Shown in pieces: positions 3,758 to 39,422 of a stretch of 40,847 nt of DNA. The stretch spans positions 1 through 40,847 of IMG/VR virus record IMGVR_UViG_3300022200_000121, one strand, 5' to 3'. Position 1 is the first letter of the stretch, and each line of letters begins with the position of its first letter. Source of the stretch: a virus. The notes beneath the pieces were generated by a model. It made no database searches, was not told the DNA's origin, and saw only the letters and a list, made by a program, of their open reading frames with translations. The position numbers and the translations under genes are program-made.

Positions 3758-5981
3758 GTTATATTATGTAGTTAATGATTATATATCAAAGACAGTAGTT
3801 TCTAATAAAAACAGAAACAAGTCTTGGTTATATGGTTATAATGATAAATATAATGTAATTGTTATTTCTAAAACAGGTCAAATAGGAGATGTAATAAACA
3901 TTTCAGGTATTTTTATTGCTTTACCTTTAACTCCCGAAAAGTGTTTTCAAAGACACACAAGTAAATCCGAACAATATTGGGAAAGAAAAAGTATCCCAAA
4001 ACAACTACAAAAAGTACAATCAATATTTCAATGGAATGAGATGCCTTCTGAATTTAAAAACAAGTGGGTTGATTATATTGAAAATGAATTTGATTATAGA
4101 GAGCAAGGCTTTTGGTTTATGAATAATGGTGTAAAAACCTATATTACAGGATCGCATTATATGTATTTACAATGGTCAAGTATTGACGTTGGTTATCCTG
4201 ATTTTCGTGAAGCTAATCGTATATATTGGATCTTTTGGGAGGCTTGTAAAGCAGACGAAAGATGTTACGGTTTAATATATTTAAAAATTAGACGTTCAGG
4301 ATTTTCATTTATGTCTTCTTCGGAAGCTGTAAACACAGGAACTCTTGCTCGTGATGCGAGAATTGGAATACTATCTAAAACAGGTCCTGATGCTAAGAAA
4401 ATGTTTACAGATAAAGTCGTTCCAATAAACAGTAAACTTCCTTTTTTCTTTAAGCCTATTATGGACGGTATGGATAAACCGAAAACAGAATTGGCGTTTA
4501 GAGTTCCTGCATCTAAAATTACTAAAAAAAATATGTATGAGTCTGATCTTGAGATCATTGAAGGACTAGATACAACAATAGATTGGAAAAACACAGATGA
4601 CAACTCTTATGATGGGGAGAAGTTATTACTATTATGCCATGACGAAAGTGGTAAATGGACTAAGCCTAACAACATTAAAGAGAATTGGCGAGTAACTAAA
4701 ACTTGTCTTAGATTAGGTTCTAAAATTATTGGTAAGTGTATGATGGGTTCTACTTCTAATGCTTTATCAAAAGGAGGTCAGAATTATAAAGATATGTTTG
4801 AGGATTCTAATGTTACAGTTAGAAATGGAAATGGGCAAACCAAGTCAGGGTTATATTCTCTTTTTATTCCTATGGAATGGAACATGGAAGGTTTTATAGA
4901 TCAATATGGGATGCCTCTGTTTTACAAACCTGTTGAACCAATAAAAGGTATTGATGGTGTTTTAATTAAAAACGGAGCTATAGATTATTGGGAAGCAGAG
5001 GTTGATTCATTAAAGAATGATGCTGATGCACTAAATGAATTTTATCGTCAGTTTCCAAGAACAGAGTCTCACGCTTTTAGAGATGAAAGTAAGCAGTCTT
5101 TGTTTAATCTAACTAAAATATATCAGCAAATAGATTTTAACGACAGCCTTATAAGAAAACATCATTTAACAAAAGGATCTTTTCATTGGGTAGACGGAAT
5201 AAAAGATGGTAAGGTTATATTCACTCCTGATAACAGGGGTCGGTTCTTAGTTAGTTGGACTCCTTCAAAATATTTGCAAAACAATGTGCATATTAGAAAT
5301 GGAAAAAAATATCCGGGGAATGAGCACATTGGGTCTTTTGGTTGTGACTCTTATGATATTTCTGCTGTAGTTGGAGGTAGAGGGTCTAACGGGGCACTTC
5401 ATGGTCTTACTAAATTTAATATGGACGAGGCTCCTTCAAATGAATTTTTTCTTGAATATATTGCAAGACCTCAAACTGCTGAGATATTTTTTGAAGAGGT
5501 TCTTATGGCTTGTGTTTTTTATGGTATGCCTATTTTAGTGGAAAATAACAAACCACGTTTGTTGTATCATTTTAAAAATAGAGGTTATAGAGAGTTTTCT
5601 TTAAACAGACCTGATAAACAATATAATAAACTTAGTAAAACTGAGAAAGAACTTGGAGGAATACCAAACTCTTCTGAAGACGTAAAGCAATCTCACGCCT
5701 CTGCTATTGAATCATATATAGAGAGGTATGTAGGGTTTGATGTTTCAACGCATTACAGAGATCCTGATGAAATTGGAAGTATGTTATTCACAAGAACTTT
5801 AGAAGATTGGGCTAAATTTGATATTAATAACAGAACAAAATTTGATGCTTCTATTAGTTCAGGATTAGCTATAATGGCTAACCAAAAGCATATATATTTA
5901 CCTCAGAAAAAAGAATCAAAAATAATTCTTAACTTCGCAAGGTACTCAAATGATGGAAATAACAGTCAATTAATTAGATGA
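3735..5981 (+). CDS. terL: Terminase large subunit
   Basis: A 748-aa DNA-packaging motor: N-terminal ATPase and C-terminal RNase H-fold nuclease. The ATPase shows a degenerate Walker A-like segment K184-I-R-R-S-G-F-S191 and a Walker B LLLLCHDES with D303-E304. The nuclease shows FGCDSYD with D538 and D541, followed by a strand/turn pattern SAVVGGRG. The only plausible start is TTG at 3735, within the preceding gene: the frame is open only from 3717 and the next methionine is far downstream, after conserved-looking sequence. It precedes the portal gene with an ATGA overlap (5978-5981). At 748 aa it is larger than the typical 450-650 aa. Confidence 0.85.
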   Translation: MQKEDLNKLYYVVNDYISKTVVSNKNRNKSWLYGYNDKYNVIVISKTGQIGDVINISGIFIALPLTPEKCFQRHTSKSEQYWERKSIPKQLQKVQSIFQWNEMPSEFKNKWVDYIENEFDYREQGFWFMNNGVKTYITGSHYMYLQWSSIDVGYPDFREANRIYWIFWEACKADERCYGLIYLKIRRSGFSFMSSSEAVNTGTLARDARIGILSKTGPDAKKMFTDKVVPINSKLPFFFKPIMDGMDKPKTELAFRVPASKITKKNMYESDLEIIEGLDTTIDWKNTDDNSYDGEKLLLLCHDESGKWTKPNNIKENWRVTKTCLRLGSKIIGKCMMGSTSNALSKGGQNYKDMFEDSNVTVRNGNGQTKSGLYSLFIPMEWNMEGFIDQYGMPLFYKPVEPIKGIDGVLIKNGAIDYWEAEVDSLKNDADALNEFYRQFPRTESHAFRDESKQSLFNLTKIYQQIDFNDSLIRKHHLTKGSFHWVDGIKDGKVIFTPDNRGRFLVSWTPSKYLQNNVHIRNGKKYPGNEHIGSFGCDSYDISAVVGGRGSNGALHGLTKFNMDEAPSNEFFLEYIARPQTAEIFFEEVLMACVFYGMPILVENNKPRLLYHFKNRGYREFSLNRPDKQYNKLSKTEKELGGIPNSSEDVKQSHASAIESYIERYVGFDVSTHYRDPDEIGSMLFTRTLEDWAKFDINNRTKFDASISSGLAIMANQKHIYLPQKKESKIILNFARYSNDGNNSQLIR

Positions 5982-11015: not shown

Positions 11016-11054
11016 ATAGAGAGTGTTTTTAAAGACACTCTCTATTATTTTTTT
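11016..11054 (+). terminator. Strong intrinsic terminator after capsid gene
   Basis: ATAGAGAGTGT (11016-11026) pairs perfectly over 11 bp with ACACTCTCTAT (11035-11045), with an 8-base loop and then a run of T (11048-11054). It lies 14 bases after the capsid stop and probably gives a high-level scaffold-capsid transcript separated from the tail genes. Confidence 0.9.
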
Positions 11055-32677: not shown

Positions 32678-33903
32678 AAATAAAAATTTTTTTTAAAGTG
32701 TGTTAATGTGAAATCTTTCTTTTTTGTTACTGCTTTATAAATTTCATGTTCAATACCTCCTTTTGAAAATATCCAAAATATCTCATTTTCAAGCCTGTCT
32801 TTTGTTGTCATTCTATCTTTTGACTGCCAATAACTTGTTGCACTGAAGTCTATGTTATAATAAACTAAGTACTCTGCTTTCTTTAAAGATATTCCCTCAC
32901 GACCTGAAACTATCTGCAATGCTATGTTCTTATCTGTTTCTTCAAAGACACTCAGTTCAGTAGTTAATTCATCTCCAAAAACTTGTTTCAATGCCTGTAG
33001 CTCTTCTTTAAATTTATAAAATATTGCAATTTTACAACCTTCCCAAGACTCTTTTATGAAATCTGCCTTTGATGTATCTAATATCATCGACTTTCCGCTT
33101 TCAAATTTAACAGTTCCTGAGTACAACTGATGCAATTTCATCATTAATTTAACAGGAGTATCTGCTAATATTATTTCTTCCTTACCTTCAACCACTAAAT
33201 TCTTAGTAAGTTTTTTAATTAACCTATAGGTTGATTCTTTTAACTCTACCTCAAAAACTTCTTCTGTTGTCTTAGCTATAAAGCCTGCTTCTTCTTGTGT
33301 GTAATTAATGGTAAATGGTTCCATTGCCTTTATTATATCTTGCCTACCATCGGAGTAATCATTCATCAATAAACCGTTTATCATTTTCTGTTTTACATTT
33401 ACAAATTTATCACAAAATCTATAGAAATTTTTAAATTCTTTAAATGGATTTTTTGGTATGCCATATACTTGATGGTACATTTGAGAATAAGACTCAGGAG
33501 TTGGTGTTCCTGATAATAAAATCACCTTTGCTTTTGTCTTATTTAAAATCTCTTTTACTTGCTTTGCTCTTTTACTTGGTTTTGCAAAAGCACCTAAACT
33601 GTGTGCTTCATCACAAACTATCATATCCCATTTTGTGTTAGGCAACTTATGTATGCTTTCATAATTCATTACAGTAAGATTGTATATTGGGGAAAGGCTG
33701 TCATAATCTGACTCGATACTTGATATTGCTTTTTTCTTAGTCAAGAACAAAACATCACTTACCCCTAACATATCTGCAATACCTAGACTCGTCAAGGTTT
33801 TCCCTGTGCGAACTTCCATTGCAAGATAAAGGAACCCTGATTGTTTTATTACCTCAGTTCCTTTTGCTATAATATCTTTTTGGTAATCTCTAAACTTAAT
33901 CAT
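32674..33903 (-). CDS. SF2 (SNF2-like) DNA helicase/translocase
   Basis: A 409-aa ATPase with full SF2 motifs: EVRTGKT (30-36, Walker A), VCDEAH (96-101, motif II), LLSGTP (129-134, motif III), IVSGREGISLKKAEYLVYYN (331-350, motif V) and SYWQSKDRM (357-365, motif VI, where the usual Q-x-x-x-R-x-x-R is slightly altered). Length and motif spacing match compact phage SNF2-like proteins that unwind or remodel DNA during replication and recombination. It overlaps the upstream gene by 8 bases and the downstream gene by 4. There is no nuclease or zinc domain. Confidence 0.86.
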   Translation of the reverse strand: MIKFRDYQKDIIAKGTEVIKQSGFLYLAMEVRTGKTLTSLGIADMLGVSDVLFLTKKKAISSIESDYDSLSPIYNLTVMNYESIHKLPNTKWDMIVCDEAHSLGAFAKPSKRAKQVKEILNKTKAKVILLSGTPTPESYSQMYHQVYGIPKNPFKEFKNFYRFCDKFVNVKQKMINGLLMNDYSDGRQDIIKAMEPFTINYTQEEAGFIAKTTEEVFEVELKESTYRLIKKLTKNLVVEGKEEIILADTPVKLMMKLHQLYSGTVKFESGKSMILDTSKADFIKESWEGCKIAIFYKFKEELQALKQVFGDELTTELSVFEETDKNIALQIVSGREGISLKKAEYLVYYNIDFSATSYWQSKDRMTTKDRLENEIFWIFSKGGIEHEIYKAVTKKKDFTLTHFKKNFYL

Positions 33904-36918: not shown

Positions 36919-37227
36919 TTAAAAAGGTAATTCATCATCTACATCGTCCTCTACTTTTAAAGACGCCACAGGGGTCTGTATTTCCCTTTTAGGGGGTGCT
37001 GAACTATCATTGTTCGGAACGAACGTATCCAACTCCATATAATGATTACCACTCCTAGCTTCTTTAATGTCTAAATTTACCCAACCATTCTTTTCATGGG
37101 TTTTTAAAAAAGAAACAGCTTCTTCTACTTTAATTGATACTCTACCCACTACAAACTCAGGAGCTTTTGGGTTTCTTTTGAAGATGAATCCATCTGCAAA
37201 AATCTTCTCTTGTTGATCTTGTGCCAT
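36919..37227 (-). CDS. SSB-like single-stranded DNA-binding protein
   Basis: A 102-aa protein. Residues about 10-70 are beta-rich with aromatic/basic pairs (ADGFIFKRN, FVVGRVSIK, GWVNLDIKE, HYMELDTF), consistent with a small OB-like fold. After a Pro-rich linker it ends in an acidic tail, EDDVDDELPF (about 93-102), very like the D-D-D-I-P-F tip of bacterial SSB that recruits partner proteins. Its neighbours, an annealing protein and a RecE-like exonuclease, are the typical company of phage SSBs. The fold is not the textbook SSB sequence, so the call rests on tail and context. Its leader carries the interleaved inverted repeats at 37249-37303. Confidence 0.68.
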   Translation of the reverse strand: MAQDQQEKIFADGFIFKRNPKAPEFVVGRVSIKVEEAVSFLKTHEKNGWVNLDIKEARSGNHYMELDTFVPNNDSSAPPKREIQTPVASLKVEDDVDDELPF

Positions 37228-37248
37228 TATAAATGTTTTTTTTAATTT

Positions 37249-37303
37249 GCCTCAGTCTGTTTTAAACCAACTCAATACCCCTGAGGCTAAGCAAAGAGTT
37301 GGT
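37249..37303 (-). promoter_or_regulatory. Interleaved inverted repeats, predicted H-type pseudoknot in SSB leader
   Basis: In the 89-base gap before the SSB-like gene, GCCTCAG (37249-37255) is complementary to CTGAGGC (37281-37287), and ACCAACTC (37266-37273) is complementary to GAGTTGGT (37296-37303). The arms alternate A-B-A'-B', so both helices (7 and 8 bp) can form only as an H-type pseudoknot or as alternatives. Connecting stretches are 10, 7 and 8 bases. In the message the structure ends about 21 bases before the start codon. There is no T-run directly after it, so it is not an ordinary terminator. Confidence 0.7.
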
Positions 37304-37316
37304 ATCTTTAATTGTT

Positions 37317-38069
37317 TTAAAATAAATATTCATCAATGTAATAATTCACTATCTCATCACATGGATTATCTCCAAAGTATTTATCGTGCATCTCAATAGC
37401 TTTGGCTACCTTGTCTTCTCCTGATTTGATAAACTCCTCAGTAGGTCTGAAAATACCTAGTAAGCCATTAGTCTTATCAATAACATAGAACACTAAAGGT
37501 TTACCGAATAGCGTCTGATAGATATAACATTGAGAATCGTAGTTGTACTTTTTAGCATTCCACTTGAACTTGTCTATATCTGAGGTGGTCTTGAGGTCAA
37601 TTATTACTTCATCTGTAACAATGTCCGCCTTACCCTTCCACATCATACCTTGAATTTCTCCAATAGCAGGTACCTCATATTGATTTCCTTCTTTATATAT
37701 TTCTTCAAAGAAAGCAATATTTCCATTAATTATACCTACAAGATTCTGAATATCCAACACCTCTTTTTCTAACATACAAAAAGGCAGGTTGTTAGCTACA
37801 CAAAAGTCTTTATATATTTTTGTGTTACGAGTGCTCGCATCGACATATAATATATCCTTAGCTTTCTCAGGTTCAAGAATCAATTGATGAAAATATCTGC
37901 CTTCCATAAAAGCCTTATTGTCTTCTCTTGGCTTACCAAAATCTTTTGGATTATTAAGCAATGTTCCAATGTCTGAATTGGACAAGTAATTCTTCCCAAT
38001 GCCTCCATAATATTCTTGGTCATTTTTTAACAACTCAAGAACTGGTACGTTTTCATGTACAACTCCCAT
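37317..38069 (-). CDS. RecE/DUF3799-like PD-(D/E)XK exonuclease
   Basis: A 250-aa exonuclease expected to resect double-strand ends to feed the annealing protein. Motifs: YLSNSDIGTLL (28-38), GRYFHQLILEP (57-67, with H61), E132, GKADIV with D149, IIDLKTT with D158-L-K160, and SQCYIYQ with Q180 and Y184. These are the G-x-x-x-H, D, D/E-x-K and Q-x-x-x-Y motifs of the RecB/RecE-like family (DUF3799 type). Its stop is followed by the SSB leader and its start touches the stop of the annealing-protein gene (38069), so the two are coupled. Confidence 0.87.
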   Translation of the reverse strand: MGVVHENVPVLELLKNDQEYYGGIGKNYLSNSDIGTLLNNPKDFGKPREDNKAFMEGRYFHQLILEPEKAKDILYVDASTRNTKIYKDFCVANNLPFCMLEKEVLDIQNLVGIINGNIAFFEEIYKEGNQYEVPAIGEIQGMMWKGKADIVTDEVIIDLKTTSDIDKFKWNAKKYNYDSQCYIYQTLFGKPLVFYVIDKTNGLLGIFRPTEEFIKSGEDKVAKAIEMHDKYFGDNPCDEIVNYYIDEYLF

Positions 38070-38776
38070 TATTTCTCTGATATTAAGTTAGCAATTTCCT
38101 TTTTAATTGCTGCTGTCATTTTATATTTTCTGTTAAGCTGTTTACCTATAGCTTCAATACCTAATGGTTTGTTAGCTGTAACGTATTTAACTACCTTATT
38201 CCAATTATCCGTATCCTTTTTAAGTTCTTCTAACTTAGGTTCAGGAGCATCTTGTTTAGTTTGTGATTGAACATCTGCTCTTGTTGGTGCTTGAGTAGCC
38301 TTGGTTTCTGTTTCAGGTAAATCTTCTCCGGCATAGATATATAATCCTAGTCCGAACATAGCTAAGTTTTTAGTCAAGCATCTCATCAATGTTTTGTTGA
38401 TGTCAAACATAGTTGCTGCATCTACCTTTTTCTCTACCTCAGTTTTCTTTCCGTTAATCCAAGCGAAACCCTTGTAAGTATATGGAATATCCATCATAGA
38501 TTTATTGGCTCCGTCCATAACGGGCAACCACATTTCTAAAGTTTCACCATCTATAGTAACTTCTGTCATAACCATATACCCAAGACGGTCATCGTAAAAG
38601 TATGGTTTTTGTGTAGTTGGATCTGTGATTACTTTATACGAAGCATCAGGACAAGCCTTTTTAACCTCAGCCCAAGCATAAGCCCAACTAAGATAAGTAA
38701 GGTTACTCTTTTTCTCTACTTTGTCGTTGACATTAACAGCCGACAATCTCTCGAAAGTTTCTTTCTTTTTTTCCAT
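38069..38776 (-). CDS. Single-strand annealing protein (DUF1071/Sak-type)
   Basis: A 235-aa protein. The segment NLTYLSWAYAWAEVKKACPDASYKV (about 25-49, hallmark W-A-x-A-W) is the signature of DUF1071-type phage recombination proteins (Sak3-like, Erf/Redbeta functional class). Residues 1-155 form the annealing core (GYMVMTEVTIDGETLEMWLPV and INKTLMRCLTKNLAMFGLGLYIYAGED). The rest is a Gln/Thr/Pro linker and a C-terminal helical lysine-rich domain (about 180-235). It pairs complementary single strands with the adjacent exonuclease and SSB, a complete recombination set. It ends on the exonuclease's first base. Confidence 0.86.
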   Translation of the reverse strand: MEKKKETFERLSAVNVNDKVEKKSNLTYLSWAYAWAEVKKACPDASYKVITDPTTQKPYFYDDRLGYMVMTEVTIDGETLEMWLPVMDGANKSMMDIPYTYKGFAWINGKKTEVEKKVDAATMFDINKTLMRCLTKNLAMFGLGLYIYAGEDLPETETKATQAPTRADVQSQTKQDAPEPKLEELKKDTDNWNKVVKYVTANKPLGIEAIGKQLNRKYKMTAAIKKEIANLISEK

Positions 38777-39310: not shown

Positions 39311-39341
39311 TTCTTAATTTTAAAGTTACCTATCATTTTAG

Positions 39342-39422
39342 TAGTCAGGACAGGATTCGAACCTGTAACTTTAGTAGGGTAATATCCCATTGCTTTGCGT
39401 CTTACCATTCCGCCACCTGACT
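39342..39422 (-). tRNA. tRNA-like gene, anticodon not assignable (possible pseudo-tRNA)
   Basis: Read on the minus strand: acceptor AGTCAGG (39422-39416) pairs with CCTGACT (39349-39343) with discriminator A (39342). A D-arm GCGG...ACGC has a GG in its loop and is Leu-like. A perfect T-arm is ACAGG-TTCGAAT-CCTGT (39366-39350). Total 81 bases, no encoded CCA. The middle does not fold as a normal anticodon arm: no 5-bp stem around a 7-base loop forms at the expected place. The only hairpin there is GGG-ATATTA-CCC. Either the tRNA has degenerated or it has a non-standard middle. It also stands between the phage operon and the cassette-like region. Confidence 0.7.

Follow-up and report, generated by a model that had tools for sequence, protein, structure and literature searches.

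The gene for a small SSB-like protein in the window (the whole 40,847-nucleotide stretch of viral DNA analysed) is preceded by a conserved H-type RNA pseudoknot, which is formed by the sense-strand transcript, is linked to this gene and stands at a fixed distance from its start codon, and a sister clade carries a second class of pseudoknot in the same place. From analogy with phage T4 we infer that the protein recognises its leader and represses translation, and on balance we lean towards the reading that the leader is a translational operator bound by the SSB-like protein itself, convergent with that of gp32.

The gap between the stop codon of the upstream gene (37317-37319) and the ATG of the SSB-like gene (37225-37227), on the minus strand of the window, comprises 89 bases (37228-37316) and contains two exact inverted repeats, one of 8 bp (ACCAACTC/GAGTTGGT, at 37266-37273 and 37296-37303) and one of 7 bp (GCCTCAG/CTGAGGC, at 37249-37255 and 37281-37287). 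The repeats are interleaved with connectors of 10, 7 and 8 nt and the last one stops 21 nt 5' of the start codon, exactly as described in the initial annotation. On the mRNA the 8-bp stem comes before the 7-bp stem, and the leader (37303-37249) is an H-type pseudoknot in which the apical loop of stem 1 forms 7 bp with a nearby downstream sequence, the order from 5' to 3' being ACCAACTCTTTGCTT (stem 1, 5' strand), A (loop 1), GCCTCAG (stem 2, 5' strand), GGGTATTGAGTTGGT (stem 1, 3' strand), TTAAAACAGA (loop 3), CTGAGGC (stem 2, 3' strand), 21 nt and ATG. RNAfold, which is unable to draw knots, reproduced stem 1 exactly, with AGCCUCAG as its 8-nt apical loop, and seven of these eight bases are complementary to sequence 10 nt 3' of stem 1; the 8-bp repeat proved to be the lower portion of a longer stem 1, which extends past two U-U mismatches (Table 1). 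Dinucleotide shuffling of the 89-nt leader produced an interleaved perfect pair as good as this one (S1+S2 of at least 15 bp, connectors of at most 12) in 5 of 10,000 trials, and across both strands of the 40.8-kb window such a pair was found solely in the tile over the SSB-like leader, the matches on the two strands marking the same place. The decisive evidence for the element is comparative and reaches beyond the window alone.

Table 1. Coordinates of the leader elements and adjacent genes in the window
Feature	Position	Strand	Basis or remarks
Stem 1, 5' strand: ACCAACTCTTTGC plus TT (two further U-G pairs)	37289-37303	-	Pairs with 37266-37280; U-U mismatches 37295/37274 and 37294/37275
Loop 1, single A	37288	-	Sole invariant column of the 56-sequence alignment
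Stem 2, 5' strand: GCCTCAG	37281-37287	-	99.2% of cells paired (alignment A3); two-sided changes in 7/7 pairs
Stem 1, 3' strand: GGGTATTGAGTTGGT; loop 2 absent	37266-37280	-	Covariation and RNAfold
Loop 3: TTAAAACAGA	37256-37265	-	Conservation (T/A)(N)AAA(T/C)AGA
Stem 2, 3' strand: CTGAGGC	37249-37255	-	Covariation
Spacer of 21 nt, A-rich, G-free, presumed ribosome-entry tract	37228-37248	-	19-21 nt in 50/58 leaders
SSB-like gene, 102 aa, acidic tail ..DDVDDELPF, bb-a-bb core	36919-37227	-	ORF, conserved tip, modelled core
Upstream gene, RecE/exonuclease VIII-like (DUF3799); context, outside the element	37317-38069	-	Family match
Sak-type single-strand annealing protein; context	38069-38776	-	Family match

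A protein search yielded four loci with three distinct leaders of the same shape and altered stems, and a degenerate DNA pattern run against the whole viral collection matched 26 contigs, in all 26 directly 5' of the same small gene; a looser pattern returned 38 stretches, the additional ones being chance matches inside genes. Two profile searches gave 413 and 506 protein relatives, 80 of which were kept in each case. Because a perfect-helix pseudoknot finder overlooks leaders, that of the window among them, in which stem 1 is mismatched or bulged, presence was scored using a duplex-tolerant finder (duplex stem 1 plus 7-bp stem 2). In the first set this identified 58 distinct leaders of the same architecture (type I) in related viral contigs, with sixteen versions of the stem-2 sequence, and the second set adds about 13 type I leaders with further stem-2 sequences, for example GGCGTGG/CCACGTC, GATATGG/CCATATC and ACCCCAA/TTGGGGT.

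Compensatory changes in homologous leaders, which the initial annotation had proposed as the test of its pseudoknot, were found in both helices, 21 of the 22 pairs having changed on both sides in an alignment of 56 sequences (alignment A3), with the repeats kept in relatives. Double-sided cells numbered 183 versus 49.9 in shuffles and the covariation score was 0.499 versus 0.228 in shuffles, both shuffle values ignoring kinship, and versus 0.06-0.17 when the partner was slid; this weakness does not affect the slid control, the multiplicity of stem-2 versions or the strand polarity described below. Stem 1 was paired in 84% of cells, an underestimate since the aligner misplaces bulged leaders. 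The two bases 5' of loop 1 pair with the two bases after stem 2 (inner pair U-A in 43 sequences, C-G in 8 and U-G in 4), and stem 1 therefore extends right to the one-nucleotide loop 1. G-U cells far exceeded A-C cells (189 versus 15) and one U-G pair was retained in 54 of the 56 sequences, indicating that selection acts on the sense RNA and not on the DNA or the opposite strand. As the fold has been kept by evolution while its letters changed, the pseudoknot is, on this comparative evidence, a real and conserved H-type structure. A Bacteroidota-type promoter pattern was not clearly above chance in the window, and the earlier attribution to a Bacteroidota phage was not established; two relatives lie in a MAG labelled Aliivibrio, which is perhaps misbinned.

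Linkage to the gene was assessed by scanning 2.4 Mb (the relatives' loci, on both strands) with a descriptor, which gave 53 distinct matches: 51 preceded an ssb start, one fell in coding sequence and one was an apparent relic, versus 0 matches in a Markov control. These loci were centred on ssb, whereas the contigs of the whole-contig pattern scan and twelve records of about 60 kb were not, and the twelve records held at most one copy each. The upstream gene is not constant (31 of the 58 leaders follow an exonuclease gene, 24 follow other genes and 3 have no gene close by) and its stop codon lies from about 0 to 342 nt from the knot, often with an intervening tRNA T-arm, such an arm standing just 5' of the knot in 22 leaders. 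The distance from knot to AUG is 19-21 nt in 50 of the 58, and the spacer (A 61%, G 2%) contains, of the UUAAA/UAAA repeats that belong to the T4-type tract, isolated UAAA-like stretches in some leaders, without a regular repeat. The 19 nt before the start hold 0.45 G at ssb versus a mean of 1.75 for other genes of the same loci, A-rich and G-poor starts being partly general in these phages.

The apparent relic is a second type I pseudoknot in locus L097 (2735-2980; descriptor match L097:2741), nearly identical to that of L069, which precedes a short orphan reading frame; it sits after an inserted DNA methyltransferase gene, is followed by a tRNA-like element and then by the normal ssb pseudoknot, and apparently derives from recombination at the ssb leader. 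Further tRNA-like elements were observed in the window (39341-39422, minus strand) and in L010, L013, L015, L020, L025, L029, L051, L090, L117 and L193, with several different copies per genome and often one directly 5' of the ssb pseudoknot; their acceptor, D and T arms are conserved (GTCAGGTGGCGGAAT..ACAGGTTCGAATCCTGTCCTGAC), a hypervariable middle of 35-110 nt replaces the regular anticodon arm, and ARAGORN rejects most of them. A dispersed 16-nt palindrome, GTGTCTTNNAAGACAC, occurs at 3941-3956, 11023-11038 and 32936-32951 of the window and in 78 of 248 loci, frequently in the stretch that separates the upstream stop codon from the ssb pseudoknot, with one-mismatch copies in the window above chance, and is possibly a terminator or processing hairpin. 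The 7-bp pair GTTCCAA..TTGGAAC, which is identical in sequence to stem 2 of L125, is retained upstream of ssb in L109, L121, L133, L164, L198 and L215; it was rejected as an element, as it falls where the coding part of the upstream gene ends and shows no covariation, and may be a coding chance.

The 102-residue protein gave no match in Pfam, PHROG, NCBIfam or the PDB, and none to the OB-fold family of canonical bacterial-type SSBs (PF00436). A first full-length AlphaFold model was poor (pLDDT 64.6) and the fold matches obtained from it were meaningless; a core of 77 residues modelled with 63 homologues comprises two strands, a helix and two strands (pLDDT 87.3), and this modelled core was without a match in the PDB. 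The acidic C-terminal tip ends in P-F, with P101 and F102 present in at least 90% of 53 relatives, the neighbouring genes encode the Sak annealing protein, the RecE-like exonuclease and a primase/helicase with a BT4734-like N-terminus, and no canonical SSB was found in 13 records (the window plus twelve related ones, about 60-65 kb). Given the acidic D-x-L-P-F tip, the recombination neighbours and the lack of a canonical SSB, the protein is probably an SSB and, for the same reasons, would be expected to bind single-stranded DNA; the earlier designation as SSB-like thus gained from tail and context, and drew nothing from the Pfam, NCBIfam and PDB searches. The protein is unrelated to gp32.

A sister group without type I carries a different leader, type II, of the form GGAG-UCAG(N)-[6-7 bp]-CUCC-AACU-[6-7 bp']-18 to 20 nt-AUG. 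Leaders of this form were identified by pattern in 26 contigs, and the 17 distinct ones precede a gene of the same family in every contig that extends far enough. Stem 2 of type II covaries (score 0.376 versus 0.099 shuffled); stem 1 is invariant and hence by itself uninformative. In a tree of 123 distinct proteins, 70 had type I leaders, 18 had type II and 35 neither, and the type II proteins formed one group with a support of 93. The presence of different knots before the same gene at the same distance argues for a function that was retained while the structure was replaced, and in the 35 relatives with neither class such control would be dispensable or different. A minimal type I leader occurs in L202 (AAGUGG-A-UACCUCAA-CCACUU-9 nt-UUGGGGUA) and is near T4 in size.

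The main competing explanation is a constitutive expression element, in which the knot would shield a processed 5' end from nucleases, or position or recruit the 30S subunit, and so provide high ssb expression without feedback. The rigid 20-nt spacing to the AUG fits such a role, and tRNA processing at the T-arm that immediately precedes 22 of the leaders could bring the knot close to the 5' end of the mRNA, as T4 gene 32 mRNA is likewise cleaved by RNase E near its pseudoknot (PMC3014915). However, most leaders are without an upstream tRNA, and a general enhancer or protector would be expected before other strongly expressed genes, whereas the whole-contig scans place the knot only before ssb. 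Because ssb alone carries the knot, this explanation is disfavoured, and we consider it unlikely but by some way the strongest competitor. Recognition of the knot by another ligand, be it a small molecule, a different phage protein or a protein of the host, ribosomal or otherwise, with the leader serving as a riboswitch or general ssb regulator, would account for the conserved sequences of loop 1 and loop 3, which are as expected of a specific binding site. Against it, the element is tied to one gene, the start site is covered by neither knot class, and neither the window region nor any of 16 related loci, with type I and type II leaders alike, reached the gathering score of an Rfam family, so that a known riboswitch or Rfam family was rejected; we consider another ligand decidedly improbable.

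Repeats acting as folded single-stranded DNA, at a replication or recombination site, would suit the surrounding replication and recombination genes, but this possibility is largely refuted by the strand polarity of the G-U and A-C cells and is further opposed by the constant AUG distance, leaving it very little credence. Frameshift pseudoknots have a long stem 1 and H-type topology, which the leader resembles, in the window the -1 frame stays open beyond the stop codon across most of the knot, and a weak score was obtained against the Rfam mycoplasma_FSE model (22.8 bits versus a cut-off of 88). A programmed -1 frameshift stimulator for the upstream exonuclease gene is nevertheless the least credible of the explanations considered: no conserved slippery site was found, the fixed distance is to the downstream AUG, and as a general role it is refuted by upstream genes that differ, with stop codons at the variable distances given above and often a T-arm between.

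The reading as an operator bound by the SSB-like protein is favoured by covariation in two helices, strand polarity, linkage to ssb only, an AUG distance that is constant despite varying upstream genes, the position of type II at the same distance, the T4-like junction, the SSB-type tail, the recombination neighbours and the lack of a canonical SSB in the 13 records; a spacer half as long as that of T4, a protein fold without a PDB relative, the 35 relatives with neither knot class and the partly general nature of A-rich, G-poor starts count against it. The knot (stem 1 of about 13-15 positions, loop 1 of one A, stem 2 of seven bp, no loop 2, loop 3 of eight to ten A-rich nt) would end near the upstream edge of the footprint of the initiating ribosome, with the G-poor unstructured tract continuing from it to the AUG. 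At a distance of 20 nt, we take the knot to lie roughly where the 30S initiation footprint begins on its upstream side, so that the knot alone need not impede initiation and protein nucleated there would. When in excess over single-stranded DNA, the SSB-like protein would nucleate on the pseudoknot and then spread across the A-rich tract, blocking 30S binding, and plentiful single-stranded DNA would draw the protein away and allow translation to restart. Two unrelated pseudoknot classes, with T4 junction geometry and a rigid 20-nt spacing, stand before one SSB-like gene family of uncultured phages. If the protein binds these knots, it would represent a new SSB fold, and the leaders would offer a second natural body of data on the way in which an ssDNA-binding protein indifferent to sequence recognises its own mRNA, which has been described as unclear for T4 (PMC535899). 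More tentatively, phages outside the T4 group may have independently evolved self-regulating pseudoknot operators for a new-fold SSB, with two knot classes in one gene family, and a knotted ssb leader at a fixed AUG distance might then be a recurrent solution and not a T4 oddity.

Among known systems, the knot of the E. coli rpsO operator involves the ribosome binding site, unlike the leader described here, which belongs to another protein and has its knot in another position, stopping 20 nt before the AUG. The two would be alike in autogenous control of translation through a leader pseudoknot, as noted for S15 (PMC3014915) and proposed here by analogy. The STAXI motif is likewise a pseudoknot RNA near ssDNA-binding-protein genes, but occurs in Enterobacteriales in tandem copies (two or three), often with UUCG loops and near several kinds of gene (PMC2864571), whereas the present leader is single-copy, lies directly before ssb and is without an Rfam match. 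The closest counterpart is the gene 32 operator of T4, T2 and RB69, in which the leader of a phage gene for an ssDNA-binding protein (SSB-like by inference in the present case) likewise forms an H-type pseudoknot; T4 gp32 nucleates on this pseudoknot and spreads over a less structured A/U-rich tract holding the ribosome binding site (PMC535899, PMC3014915). In our own reading of its sequence the T4 leader runs TGCC-A-GCTATGA-GGTA-AAGTG-TCATAGC, followed by 39 nt, and on this reading of the T4 stems the likeness first suggested in the initial annotation extends to the junction geometry, with a single-A loop 1, a 7-bp stem 2 and no loop 2, as well as to an unstructured A/U-rich tract from knot to AUG. 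The leaders differ from T4 in stem 1 (13-15 positions versus 4-5 bp), in the spacer (20 nt versus 39 nt), in being without a Shine-Dalgarno-like stretch, in the second pseudoknot class of the sister clade and in the protein (102 versus about 300 aa). Because the protein is unrelated, the leader does not belong to the gene 32 operator family through common descent, though it is alike in the parts that can be compared.
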